Positions 19,619 through 24,011 of a stretch of 44,398 nt of DNA are shown one piece after another; position 1 is the first letter of the stretch, and every line of letters starts with the position of its first letter. The notes under the pieces were generated by a model that worked only from the letters and a program-made list of their open reading frames with translations, ran no database searches and was not told the DNA's origin. The DNA lies in the NCBI GenBank assembly GCA_902789445.1, contig CADAOB010000016.1, forward strand, positions 1-44,398. The letters are read 5' to 3'. The stretch comes from an uncultured Bacteroidia bacterium. GTDB taxonomy: Bacteria > Bacteroidota > Bacteroidia > Bacteroidales > UBA932. The translations under genes were made by a program, and so were the position numbers.

Positions 19619-20152
19619 ATGAAAAAGTTCATTGCAATTACCACTTGCCTTTTTGCAGCCGTCCTTTTGTTTGCGCAGCCGCAGGGCAAGTCCAGCGAAG
19701 AGCAGCGCAAGAAAGAATGGGAACGCATCCAGTCTGAGAAGATTGCCTTCATTACCCAGGAGCTTGACCTGACTCCCGAAGAAGCCCAGGTTTTCTGGCC
19801 CGTGTACAACCAGTGCTGGAAAGAGGCCCACGCCGCAAACAAACAGATGCGCGAAGCTTTCGGTGAATTCCGCGGCAAAAAAGCCGACGAACTCTCCGAC
19901 AAGGAGCTTGAAAAGAAAGTCGATGCCTATGTCCAGGCCTACAAAGCCGCCAACCAGGTACTTTCCGACTGGTATCCCAAATTCAAACAAGTGCTGCCCA
20001 TCCGCAAGGTGGCCAAACTCTATCAAGCGGAAGAGGCCTTCCAGCAGCGGATGATCAACAACCTGCGCAAGCATCCCCAGCAGCCCCCGAAACAGGGCTC
20101 TGTCTTCAAAGAAGGACGCGAACGCGACAAAGACAAGAACAAACAGGAATAA
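19619..20152 (+). CDS. CpxP/Spy-like periplasmic protein
   Basis: 177 aa with a cleavable signal peptide (MKKFIAITTCLFAAVLLFAQ) and a helical, highly charged mature part. QELDLTPEEAQVFWPVYNQ resembles the LTxxQ repeat of CpxP/Spy and of the heavy-metal sensor family, which bind misfolded proteins or metals in the periplasm. The C-terminus is lysine-rich (EGRERDKDKNKQE). It is the last gene of the sigma/anti-sigma unit, 11 nt after the previous stop, and is followed by a strong intrinsic terminator. A feedback role in envelope stress is inferred from the family and context. Confidence 0.75.
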   Translation: MKKFIAITTCLFAAVLLFAQPQGKSSEEQRKKEWERIQSEKIAFITQELDLTPEEAQVFWPVYNQCWKEAHAANKQMREAFGEFRGKKADELSDKELEKKVDAYVQAYKAANQVLSDWYPKFKQVLPIRKVAKLYQAEEAFQQRMINNLRKHPQQPPKQGSVFKEGRERDKDKNKQE

Positions 20153-20163
20153 GCCTGCGTAAA

Positions 20164-20190
20164 AACCCCGGCCGACGGCCGGGGTTTTTG
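20164..20190. terminator. Intrinsic terminator (bidirectional)
   Basis: CCCCGGCC-GAC-GGCCGGGG with A5 before and T5 after, giving a perfect 8-bp GC stem with a 3-nt loop. It ends the sigma operon on the plus strand and also serves the minus-strand gene relic to its right. Confidence 0.88.
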
Positions 20191-20193
20191 CTG

Positions 20194-20289
20194 TCAGATC
20201 CATTCGGTATGGAAAAGCCCCATCAGGGTCAGGACTGTCACGACCGTCAGGGCGATGATCCACAGGAGGAAGATCACCAGGCCCGGCCG
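20194..20289 (-). pseudogene. 3' relic of a PspC-type membrane protein gene
   Basis: On the minus strand this encodes GRPGLVIFLLWIIALTVV and on to GLFHTEW-Ile-stop, the last 30 or so residues of the PspC protein encoded at 30646-31677. Bases 20207-20289 are identical, inverted, to 31582-31664 (83 bp). Homology fades on both sides and no upstream part of the gene remains: the next bases are low-complexity CGCCCGTC repeats. It looks like a fragment left by a recent duplication or rearrangement. The stop and an adjacent terminator are kept. Confidence 0.75.
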
Positions 20290-20355
20290 TCACCCGTCGC
20301 CCGTCATCCTTTGCCCGCCGCCCGTCGCCCGTCTCTCCCTCCCCCACCAACCAGT

Positions 20356-20705
20356 CTTTCTGTTCCGCGCAGAACAGAAAGAATTCGCCATCTACCTGAT
20401 TATCAACTATCTTAGTAGAACATTTTCTTCATCCCCAGTATTTCCCCTCCAGCCATCCACCGTCTTTCTGTTCCCATCGGAACAGAAAGAATCTCGTAAT
20501 CAATTGACTCCCAGCATCATGAAGAAAACAATTTTCCCCTCCACAACGACTCCCTCCCAGTCATCCACCGTCTTTCTGTCCCATCTAGGACAGAAAGAAT
20601 ATAGAAACGATCTGATTATAAGGAATTTGATGGCGAATGGCCGATTGAATCCGCCCATCGGCCTACTGTCAACTAACGCCTTTCTGTACCAAACAGGACA
20701 GAAAG
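20356..20705. repeat. Array of four hairpin repeats with exact 108-bp period (REP-like)
   Basis: Each unit starts with a 26-bp dyad of the form CTTTCTGTTCC-N-GGAACAGAAAG, at 20356, 20464, 20572 and 20680, exactly 108 bp apart. Stems are 10-11 bp in the first three and 7-8 bp plus a mismatch in the fourth. In units 1, 3 and 4 GATTAT follows the dyad after exactly 16 bases. Units 1 and 2 end in CATCCACCGT before the next dyad. The rest of each unit has diverged. The array lies directly beyond the 3' end of a REP-type transposase gene, and two further copies of the dyad lie beyond its 5' end, which is the arrangement of REP/RAYT systems. The spacing and dissimilar spacers do not fit CRISPR. Confidence 0.8.
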
Positions 20706-20750
20706 AAAACAGCAAAGTACAGATTATCAAATAGCTATATGGCTACTTAT

Positions 20751-21761
20751 TTACAGACGTAAGAATTTTTCAATCTGTCGCCGGGTACAACCGGTAATAG
20801 TCTTCAGCTGGACTCCGATACGCCGGCGCTCATATTCCGGCGCCGACAAAAGGTCGCGGATATCGCGATACTCAGACAGTCCATCAACAGCCTTCGCCAA
20901 TGCATAGTAGATCCTGTCAGAACCTGGCTCAAAAACTTCTTTGACATCGTATTCCGCTCCCGTATTGCCATTGATTGCATCGACCATCTTCTGGAAGCTT
21001 TTATAATAAGATGTGGATTTCTGGTAATCAACAAACGCATACTCTTTGATGGTCATATCGGTTAGCCTTTGTTTCTCGGCCAATGACAATGGGGCCATCA
21101 GACGATCGAGCATCGCAAAGTTTACGGGCTCATTATCTCGTTTTTGCGCCTGAATCATTTTGACCGCCCGGTAGTAATCCTTACTCATTTTTTCGTTCGC
21201 TTCCGAAAAAGGATACGTCTTCTGGGCGTAGGCCAGGAAGTTCCAGCGATAATCCATCACGTTGGAGCAGATCTTTCGCTCAACCGGGTTATTGTACAGA
21301 TAAGCAATGGCCATCCGGACTTTCTTCTCGCCAACTTTGGACGCACTGCCGAAACGCGGCGTAAAGATAGATCCTTTTCGACCATAGTGCTGATTGAACA
21401 ATAAGGCATACCATCGTGTCAAATCGCGCATGAAAGCAGAAAACTGTTTCTTGCTCTGGCAGATACACAGAACATGAAAATGATCGACCATCAGACATAA
21501 GCCCAAAACCTGAACGCCATATCGGCGGGCAACGACAGCTGCAATCGTGTAAAAGACCAGGTAATCCTTGATGGAATAAAACAACAGATGCCCCTTGATG
21601 GTTCTCTGATAAACGTGTTGCACCGTGTTCGGCCGGAATTTTTTGTAACGTCCCTTCATATCTCTTGCACGTATTAGAAAGAAAGACATCATCGTCTTCC
21701 TTTCAAAGGTCGGAAAACTTCGGCATATTTCCAAATCATTCTGAAATTTGTTTTTTACCAT
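20751..21761 (-). CDS. REP-associated tyrosine transposase (Y1/HUH family)
   Basis: The longest frame is 336 aa. The Y1 transposase fold begins at about residue 50 ([15 protein letters not shown]). The HUH pair is H94/H96 in MVDHFHVLC, and the likely catalytic tyrosine is Y154 in [14 protein letters not shown], matching YIHLNPV of RAYTs. A C-terminal region of about 150 residues contains a helix-turn-helix-like end ([13 protein letters not shown]). RAYTs nick single-stranded REP hairpins and are usually single-copy, domesticated genes. The first 34 residues look non-conserved; the ATG at 21657-21659 ([16 protein letters not shown], 302 aa) may be the true start. Hairpin repeats with CTTTCTG/CAGAAAG arms flank the gene on both sides. 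GC is well below that of the neighbours. Confidence 0.85.
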
Positions 21762-21787
21762 ACTGTTTTACAGATGATTACGAAATT

Positions 21788-21813
21788 CTTTCTGCGCTTT
21801 TCGGAACAGAAAG
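21788..21813. repeat. REP-like hairpin, copy 5
   Basis: CTTTCTG and CAGAAAG arms (7 bp) around a 12-nt centre, the same 26-bp overall size as the array units. It lies 27 bp upstream of the transposase frame. Confidence 0.6.
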
Positions 21814-21894
21814 AGCGCGCGGGGGGAAATGTTTGATGCTCTTGCTGAGAATTTTTGATTTTTATCATTCTGAAATACAGCGTATTATAAATAT

Positions 21895-21920
21895 CTTCCT
21901 GTCCCACGCGGAACAGAAAG
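21895..21920. repeat. REP-like hairpin, copy 6 (degenerate)
   Basis: CTTCCTGTCC then GGAACAGAAAG, 26 bp in total with mismatches in the stem, 107 bp after copy 5. The near-108 spacing repeats that of the main array. Confidence 0.5.
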
Positions 21921-21991
21921 GGGAATGGGGAGGCAAGGGAGAAGGCCGTGAAAAGGAAAAGGGAGAAGAGGAAAGAATCGGTAAATCTTCC

Positions 21992-21999
21992 TATCTTTG
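21992..21999 (+). promoter_or_regulatory. -7 element TATCTTTG of lepA
   Basis: Exact TAnnTTTG, only 7 nt before the ATG at 22007, so the mRNA should be nearly leaderless. This decides the start against the longer frame that opens at 21665. Confidence 0.65.
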
Positions 22000-22006
22000 C
22001 AGCATT

Positions 22007-23794
22007 ATGAAGAACATCCGGAATTTTTGCATCATTGCGCACATCGACCACGGCAAGAGCACGCTGGCGGACCGCATGCTCGAGCGGACACATACGCTCG
22101 ACCAGCGGGAAATGGAAAACCAGGTGCTGGACTCGATGGATCTGGAACGGGAGAAGGGCATCACGATCAAGAGCCACGCCATCCAGATGAACTACAGCCG
22201 CGGCAGTGAGCAATATGTCCTCAACCTGATCGACACCCCCGGCCACGTGGACTTCTCTTATGAGGTCTCGCGCGCCATCGCTTCGTGCGAAGGGGCGCTG
22301 CTGGTGGTCGATGCCACGCAGGGCATCCAGGCACAGACGATCTCGAACCTCTACCTGGCCATCGAGCACGATCTGGAGATCATCCCCGTGCTCAACAAGA
22401 TCGACATGGATGCGGCGATGGTCGATGTGGTGCGCGACCAGGTGGTGGACCTGCTGGGCTGCGATCCGGACGACGTGCTGCTGGCCTCGGCCCGTACGGG
22501 CGAAGGCGTGGATGCCATCCTCGACGCCATCGTGGACCGCATCCCCGCGCCGAAGGGCGACCCCCAGGCGCCGCTGCAGGCCCTGATCTTCGATTCGGTG
22601 TTCAATTCCTTCCGCGGCATCATCGCTTATTTCAAAGTCGAAAACGGCTCGATCCGTACGGGCGACCGCGTGAAATTCGTCAACACGGGCAAGGAGTACA
22701 CAGCCGACGAGGTGGGCGTGCTCAAGATGAAACTCTGCCCGACGGGCGAGATTCCCTGCGGCTCGGTGGGCTACATCATCTCGGGCATCAAGACGGCCGT
22801 GGAGGTGAAGGTGGGCGATACCATCACGCACGTGGCGAACCCCTGCAAGGAAGCCATCGCCGGCTTCGAGGATGTGAAGCCGATGCTCTATGCGGGCATG
22901 TTCCCCGTGACGGCGGACCAATATGAAGACCTGCGCTCCTCGCTGGAGAAATTCCAGCTCAACGACGCTTCGCTCGTCTTCGAGCCGGAGAGCTCGCTGG
23001 CCCTGGGCTTCGGTTTCCGCTGCGGATTCCTGGGCCTGCTCCACATGGAGATCGTGCAGGAGCGCCTCTTCCGGGAATTCGACATGGACGTGGTGACGAC
23101 CGTCCCGAATGTTTCTTATAAGGTATATACGACGCAGGGCGCCGTCATCGACGTCCACAACCCTTCGGGCCTGCCGGCCCCTACGCTCATCGACCACATC
23201 GAAGAGCCTTTCATCCAGGCGCAGGTCATCAGCAAGAGCGAATTCTACGGCCCGATCATGAAACTCTGCCTCGACAAGCGCGGTATCCTCAAGAGCGAGC
23301 ATTACCTGACGGCCGACCGCGTGGAGCTGACCTACGAGATGCCGCTCTCGGAAATCGTCTTCGACTTCTACGACAAGCTCAAATCGATCTCCAAGGGTTA
23401 CGCCTCGTTCGACTACCACGTCATCGGTTTCCGCCCGGCCAAACTCGTCAAGCTCGACATCCTGCTCAACGGTGAACCGGCCGACGCCCTCTCGACGCTC
23501 ATCCACCAGGACCACGCCTACGACTTCGGCCGCAAGATCTGCGAAAAGCTCAAGGAACTCATCCCCCGCCAGCAGTTCGACATCGCCATCCAGGCGGCCA
23601 TCGGCGCGAAGATCATCGCCCGCGAGACGGTCCGTCAGGTCCGCAAGGATGTGACGGCCAAATGCTACGGCGGCGATATCACCCGCAAGCGCAAACTGCT
23701 CGAAAAACAGAAACAGGGCAAGAAGCGTATGCGCCAGATCGGTCAGGTGGAAGTGCCCCAGTCTGCGTTTATGGCGGTCCTCAAGCTCGACTGA
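22007..23794 (+). CDS. lepA: Elongation factor 4 (LepA)
   Basis: 595-aa translational GTPase, full family length. G1 is AHIDHGKST (residues 11-19), G3 DTPGHVDF, G4 [16 protein letters not shown] starts domain 2. The signature C-terminal domain replaces EF-G domain [25 protein letters not shown], and the basic end [18 protein letters not shown]. LepA binds stalled or initiating ribosomes and can back-translocate tRNAs. It is a single-gene unit with its own promoter between the transposase island and the efflux operon. Confidence 0.97.
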
Positions 23795-23848
23795 CCACCA
23801 CCTCTTTTTGCGCTGCAATGTACACATCAGTCATTCAGCGAATTATGT

Positions 23849-23883
23849 AAAGTGATCCCCCTGAAACAAAGGGGGATCACTTT
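23849..23883. terminator. Hairpin terminator candidate after lepA
   Basis: AAAGTGATCCCCC and GGGGGATCACTTT form a perfect 13-bp stem around a 9-nt loop, 55 nt after the lepA stop. The U-tract is weak (the TTT is inside the stem, followed by GTGTAAT). The following 100 bp up to the efflux promoter hold no gene. Confidence 0.7.
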
Positions 23884-23990
23884 GTGTAATAGCTTGATTT
23901 TCAGCTGTGTCCGTTGCAGCGCAAGAGAAGGCGACGATTGTTGGGCGGGAGAAGTAGAGGCTGAAAATAAAAAATATTTTTAAAAAATAG

Positions 23991-24011
23991 GTACTTTGTG
24001 ATACAAGGTAC
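23991..24011. promoter_or_regulatory. Palindromic operator candidate of the efflux operon
   Basis: GTACTTTGT-GAT-ACAAGGTAC: 9-bp arms with one mismatch, ending 13 bp upstream of the TATCTTTG promoter element, so a bound protein would cover the -33 region. The operon encodes a PadR-family repressor, which makes autoregulation through this site a reasonable inference. Confidence 0.5.

Follow-up and report, generated by a model that had tools for sequence, protein, structure and literature searches.

A predicted REP/RAYT system with a head-to-tail hairpin array of exact 108-bp period in an uncultured Bacteroidales bacterium

Why should hairpins beside a transposase gene stand at exactly equal distances when most of the sequence between them has diverged? 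The question is raised by contig CADAOB010000016.1 of an uncultured Bacteroidales bacterium from the rumen, of which positions 1 to 44,398 (44,398 nucleotides, here called the window) were analysed. In the portions drawn on here, PMC2817692 describes REPs in inverted orientation around proteobacterial RAYTs, PMC8266576 treats REP recognition and cleavage, PMC3116915 finds each RAYT of Pseudomonas fluorescens SBW25 accompanied by an ordered tandem cluster of REPINs, and PMC6006769 reports Bacteroidetes TnpAREP genes with atypical flanking structures that recur elsewhere in the genome. The corresponding parts of PMC3733652 describe CGTC-tagged REPs that lack any transposase, with Bacteroidetes among the hosts and negligible head-to-tail dimers. 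We consider it probable that the locus presented here is a REPtron, in which a RAYT lies between copies of its cognate REP and abutting elements of about 108 bp set the period of the array.

Four dyads lie on the forward strand at 20356-20381 (W1), 20464-20489 (W2), 20572-20597 (W3) and 20680-20705 (W4), with spacings of 108, 108 and 108 bp, and two lie on the reverse strand across the Y1 gene at 21788-21813 (W5) and 21895-21920 (W6, 107 bp outward of W5); these positions and spacings agree with the preliminary description. W5 and W6 carry one mismatch each to the pattern, for which the shuffle mean in the window is 0.00 and at least six matches occurred in 0 of 100 shuffles. Each dyad is a central hairpin joined to a conserved arm, at 20382-20422, 20490-20530, 20598-20638 and 20706-20746 for W1 to W4 and at 21747-21787 and 21854-21894 for W5 and W6. 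The arms of W1 to W4 run to the right and those of W5 and W6 to the left, that is, inward to the RAYT gene from both sides, with W4 as its inner 3′ bracket and W5 as its inner 5′ bracket. The motif GATTAT, recorded earlier as following three of the four dyads after 16 bases, does so exactly in W1, W3 and W4 (W2 has GACTCC there) and is part of this arm. W1 to W4 are arranged head to tail, all facing one way, and the alternating orientation of BIMEs is absent. The array of four 108-bp units in single orientation is drawn as 20315-20746 (dyad centre ±54), its outer boundaries being taken from other REP families. When five elements were folded as single strands, the central hairpin formed in four and was missing in W5. 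Just outside the array, Tandem Repeats Finder reports a degenerate C-rich 7/14-bp tandem tract (20287-20333); a second such tract lies at 874-1097 of another locus (L037), so that two REP/RAYT loci adjoin tracts of this kind.

The spacers had been described as mostly diverged and free in sequence. They are diverged (29-56% identical overall, without net length change) but not simply free. Over the whole 82 bases, U1-U2, U1-U3, U1-U4 and U2-U3 are 40-56% identical in register, with shuffle p of 0.0025 or less and the register the best of all; U2-U4 and U3-U4 are not significant against shuffles over the same 82 bases, nor is U2-U3 with its ends trimmed (p 0.20). Divided by side, the arm sides of W1 to W4 are 32-51% alike and the non-arm sides 24-37%, except W2-W3 at 66%. 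Much of the homology in register is the conserved arm, and outside the arm only W2 and W3 are clearly alike. Partial homology in register, including that of W2-W3 outside the arm, is also what would be seen in an ordinary tandem repeat, one in which a REP-containing stretch of 108 bp gained copies through slippage or through unequal crossing-over between dyads. This alternative overlaps the REPtron reading and differs in how the array grew: the RAYT would have no part in growth, and changes would come in whole units since the dyads are the recombining homology. We give it somewhat less than an even chance. It is at odds with the spacing of 107 bp found both at W5-W6 and at an unrelated site in the same genome (C2:98497/98604), where the non-arm sides bear little likeness to those of W1 to W4.

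The Y1 gene is intact and open, in a minus-strand frame of 336 amino acids (20751-21761). An MKGR start within this frame is conserved in relatives, and this N-terminus suggests that the gene begins at 21659, giving a protein of 302 amino acids (20751-21659, minus strand) with a C-terminal helical extension. The protein matches Pfam Y1_Tnp above its cut-off and scores 43 bits with the NCBIfam RAYT model, below the cut-off of 80; H60, H62 and Y120 are invariant in 49 sequences. A structure model (pLDDT 93) based on 49 sequences from the window and the loci matches 4er8 best among PDB entries, a TnpAREP in complex with a REP hairpin (TM 0.72 by target length and 0.41 by query); the ISDra2 and IS608 transposases follow. 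As modelled, the gene product is predicted to fold like E. coli TnpAREP and hence to be a RAYT, probably a domesticated single-strand DNA transposase with the dyad element as its probable target. Its motifs are DHFH and YLYNNP, without WQ.

Three further RAYTs of this family are encoded in the same genome at 37-41% identity, along with one distant match (26%, at C12). Each of the three is flanked on both sides by hairpins of its own, with stems CCTATACGG, AATCCTGCCC and AGTTGACCCCC; the match of the paralogue at C6:28310 contains two counted TGA codons. In relative G033 an orthologue 70% identical to the window RAYT is bracketed by the same dyad and, as in the window, adjoins lepA. These relationships bear on whether the locus might be an active IS200/IS605 insertion sequence with subterminal hairpins, as the HUH/Y1 fold and the fairly constant size of the bracket (39 of 47 between 1,050 and 1,230 bp, see below) might suggest. 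We consider this very unlikely, as the paralogues are not near-identical copies, the orthologue keeps its place beside lepA in G033, and solo hairpins are dispersed.

Dispersal was surveyed in the genome of the window (G000) and in a set of 40 genomes of the genus. With the corrected pattern, G000 holds 19 dyad sites, 17 of them without mismatch, and the reversed-pattern control gives 0; restriction of the dyad to this locus, named earlier as a ground for taking the link to the RAYT as chance, is thus not what was found. Open frames of 150 amino acids or more hold 12 of these 19 sites and 245 of 280 random positions, opposite-strand frames being long here; a perfect TTTCTG dyad at G000:C43:4764 (L034) lies inside an open frame of 935 codons. 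Dyads occur in 9 of the 40 genomes, with 19-20 in G022, 19 in G000, 19 in G034, 9-10 in G033, 7 in G017 and one in each of the remaining four, and the reversed pattern has one match over all 40, in G008. Both genomes with a close RAYT hold nine or more dyads; among the other 38, three (G022, G034 and G017) hold 7-20 and four hold 1. The linkage of dyad and RAYT across the 40 genomes is therefore loose, and dyads apart from any close RAYT in the assembly, one part of the other ground for chance named in the preliminary description, do occur in these three genomes. In the AGTTGAYCCCC family, five genomes with a RAYT at most 700 bp from a copy hold 4-26 copies, and in the other 35 three hold 4-9 and one holds 1, in both cases counted over the places listed, among which G037 does not figure. 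Contig 9 of G033 and contig 9 of RUG12415, of equal length and with a RAYT at the same place, were counted as one. The best 80 of 242 related loci are all from Bacteroidales or Bacteroidia records and mostly from metagenome-assembled genomes labelled rumen, other forestomach or gut, some being without a source. G022 also contains dispersed repeats, as long as about 1 kb, that carry the TTTCTG dyad (L107, C23 1838-2504, with similar ones in C1, C2, C31, C42 and C45), and the C23 repeat includes a tandem array of another hairpin, CCGCGACAGGAT...ATCCTGTCGCGG (72 bp × 9.3, 90% matches).

The many dyad copies in genomes without the RAYT, together with a 26-bp palindrome that is perfect or near-perfect, would also fit an array of operators, in which the dyad is a transcription factor site and its proximity to the RAYT coincidental. 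That reading has very little probability in our view, given that the arm stands at a fixed distance, that stems change with the RAYT, and that other RAYTs have private hairpins. A stem common to both flanks was found at 44 of 82 related Bacteroidales RAYT loci, against 64 of 6,642 cross-locus comparisons and 0 of 62 distant flanks; 38 of the 82 showed no shared stem by the same test. Two of 84 loci had been dropped for short flanks, and the hairpins of the paralogues at C6:51611 and C1, which the test missed, are counted as misses. A looser rule, which superseded a noisy loose clustering of hairpins, gives 47 of 84 loci bracketed, with hairpin centres 1,050-1,230 bp apart in 39 of the 47 (extremes 1,025 and 1,716; W4-W5, 1,108). 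Most bracketed loci have one hairpin per side; extra copies within 300 bp occur at 4 of the 47, and the window has the most. Among RAYT pairs at least 80% identical, 4 of 4 share a 7-mer of the stem; the figures are 5 of 24 for pairs at 60-80% and 11 of 468 below 60%, a gradient by which stems appear to diverge along with the RAYT, being common to close RAYTs and mostly not to distant ones. Hence the earlier identification of the locus as a REP/RAYT system stands: the dyad is dispersed, brackets the RAYT with inward arms, brackets the orthologue in G033, and is replaced at other RAYTs by hairpins of their own.

What these elements have in common lies outside the hairpin. For the window family, 61 non-redundant dyad sites (17 of 78 with near-identical arms removed, up to three mismatches admitted) were oriented by likelihood, and one arm holds 12.0 bits, the other side 3.2 and shuffles 2.5-2.8; the arm consensus is A..tt.G.AA...gcTGAt..tCAg....tT...aaac. 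This outer arm, GTAA...CTGATaaTCAG...TTA, stands at a fixed distance from the hairpin and recurs beside RAYTs with unrelated central hairpins. Of 180 arms, 8 belonged to the window's own family and were left out; among the remaining 172, all from other families, the window-arm profile matched 123 at p ≤ 0.005, with an offset of 5 or 6 in 119 of these. The arm is present at 41 of 43 RAYT loci of other families; at the paralogues at C6:51611 and C1 it was identified by eye only. Hairpins far from RAYTs matched in 34 of 729 cases, many at the same offset, and these are probably dispersed copies. A strict arm pattern proved too narrow to be useful across relatives, matching in 15 of 41 genomes.

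The extent of an element can be read from the other families, in which 98 non-redundant arms (25 of 123 removed as redundant) give the consensus TTT..gTAA.t.gCTGAtaaTCAG..a.TTA..cGCCAcgg. Conservation in these families ends about 53 bp from the centre and is near zero beyond, for an element of about 106-108 bp including the hairpin; the arms end in CCAC (GTGG reversed) in 31 of 98 and in CCAG in 23 of 98. A REPIN joins two inverted REPs in one element; the other families and the copy at 23806-23926 carry an arm on both sides, the window family on one. As the second arm is not conserved there, we infer the outer boundary of the window elements from the other families. The copy at 23806-23926 is a two-armed REP of a second family after lepA, 121 bp long with a AGTGATCCCCC hairpin and TTGCGCTGCAA ends; its hairpin class brackets the RAYT at C1:140473, and it is not found at that place in G010. 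An element finder made from the other families' arms caught W1, W2, W4 and W6, missed W3, W5 and the 23806 copy, and returned 105 elements in 561,020 bp against 0 in 185,717 bp of shuffled sequence (54 of 84 loci left out of this control). Directly before the dyad, GTAG or GTGG occurs at 0 of 61 sites on either side. Before TTTCTG the non-arm side has CGTC at 14 of 61 sites, TGTC at 3 and CCTC at 4 (arm side 5, 3 and 2), and the C of CGTC pairs within the dyad. No CCA tail was seen in the window elements, and the three Rfam matches (E as high as 1) all fell short of their gathering scores.

With an element of about 106-108 bp and an array period of 107-108 bp, the elements probably abut, and one element length is the likeliest source of the exact 108-bp spacing. 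A period equal to element length in other families also weighs against an ordinary tandem repeat. Should each repeat unit be simply one element, the length-measuring copy mechanism proposed in the preliminary description would not be needed. Its other proposal, selection on a spacing of about 10 helical turns, would keep the dyads in phase for joint binding by the RAYT or a DNA-bending protein, and finds some encouragement in array spacers that are 29-56% identical yet show no net change in length. It was rejected on the spacings elsewhere, which are 108, 107, 96, 45 and 44 bp within the family (the 44-45 bp pairs in G033 and G034) and 163-167 bp between same-family hairpins at unrelated RAYTs (L035, at C6:28310, L176 and L193); with one hairpin per side at most bracketed loci as well, we regard helical phasing as improbable. 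The spacings of 96, 44-45 and 163-167 bp also count against the element-length reading, as they do not equal one element. At C6:28310 and L176 the elements 163-167 bp apart have, by eye, about 50-60 bp between them.

Arrays differ between relatives by whole units. The interval from asd to thrA holds a single dyad in the window genome and four at exactly 96 bp in G022, a difference of 288 bp, or three units; the flanks are 97% identical over 427 and 279 bases, and the junction lies in the dyad. No RAYT was found in the 6 kb read around this G022 array, so that regular units apart from a RAYT, which the preliminary description had counted against the link, exist in part, with a period of 96 rather than 108 bp. 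Both the absence of a close RAYT and the whole-unit difference with its junction in the dyad favour the ordinary tandem repeat. Among themselves the G022 spacers show 54-71% identity, against a difference of about 3% in the flanks, from which the units are probably older than the split of the genomes. By this comparison of sequences, three units were probably lost by the window genome, though G022 may instead have received an old array by transfer. At the same spot a different hairpin is present in G033 and G010, and G016 and G035 showed none. In G010 the upstream gene and lepA at the RAYT locus are, by eye, about 26 bp apart, so a block of about 1.85 kb with the RAYT and array is absent there. 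The lepA gene and neighbouring blocks are rearranged among relatives (window 20150-24000 compared with G022, G033, G034 and G010), and four groups of dyads in G033 and G034 are situated 10-28 bp from where matching blocks end. REPs may act as recombination points.

The system described here is a predicted REP/RAYT system that is a variant in protein motifs and in element build. The preliminary description called such systems best known from Proteobacteria; PMC6006769 already has Bacteroidetes RAYTs with atypical flanks. Gammaproteobacterial REPtrons such as that of E. coli TnpAREP, as presented in parts of PMC2817692 and PMC8266576, are alike in HUH/Y1 fold, inverted bracketing, dispersed REPs and a RAYT that diverges faster than its neighbour (here lepA); the window system differs in having no GTAG foot, a long C-terminal extension and a shared arm with a private hairpin. 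Bacteroidetes TnpAREP subclass 2.6 (Bertels RAYT group 5) shares the host phylum, atypical flanks without GT[AG]G and copies elsewhere, but has in the table of PMC6006769 NH[LIV]H, WQ, YIH[QN]NP and 179 amino acids, where the window RAYT has DHFH, no WQ, YLYNNP and 302. The SBW25 clusters, in the portion of PMC3116915 used, are likewise ordered beside RAYTs and consist of nearly identical REP doublets, whereas the window units are diverged, single-armed and of exact period. CGTC-tagged REPs, from the section of PMC3733652 seen, resemble the window elements in their Bacteroidetes hosts, the CGTC before the dyad (14 of 61 sites) and TT/AA at the stem base; they differ in stems of 8-9 bp, CCA tails and lack of a transposase, the window elements lying beside a RAYT, head to tail, with stems of up to 11 bp. 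E. coli BIMEs, in the excerpt of PMC2817692, also place several REPs in a regular array but alternate in orientation, unlike the four units here. The arrangement of shared arm and private hairpin was not met in the portions of PMC6006769, PMC3116915 and PMC8266576 covered, and it may be in print.

The REPtron reading would work as follows. An element of about 108 bp would consist of a 26-bp central hairpin with a RAYT-specific stem and an outer arm, the arm bearing a small palindrome, CTGAT-n-ATCAG, at a fixed distance and being of a type common to other RAYTs of the family. Multiplication of such elements beside the RAYT gene would have placed four at its 3′ side and two at its 5′ side, each abutting the next head to tail. 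The RAYT would act on REP DNA in single-stranded form, nicking it close to the arm or foot and joining an excised unit to the side of an existing one, and arrays would then also grow or shrink by recombination between dyads. For the window system we infer cleavage, transposition and the direction of array change from these patterns.

To the unsettled questions of how REPs spread and how a RAYT distinguishes its own REP, the system adds RAYTs, several in one genome and dozens in its relatives, that carry a common outer arm beside a central hairpin of their own. More tentatively, and with doubt outweighing confidence, RAYTs of a large clade in uncultured Bacteroidales may use a two-part address, in which the common arm serves as cleavage or foot module and the private hairpin as specificity, so that new specificities could arise through the hairpin alone and exact end-to-end insertion would yield length-exact arrays. 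The common arm and the specific hairpin are separable, and specificity would thus be testable by exchanging hairpins between oligonucleotides. The asd-thrA site, with one unit in one genome and four in another, offers a natural case of array change.
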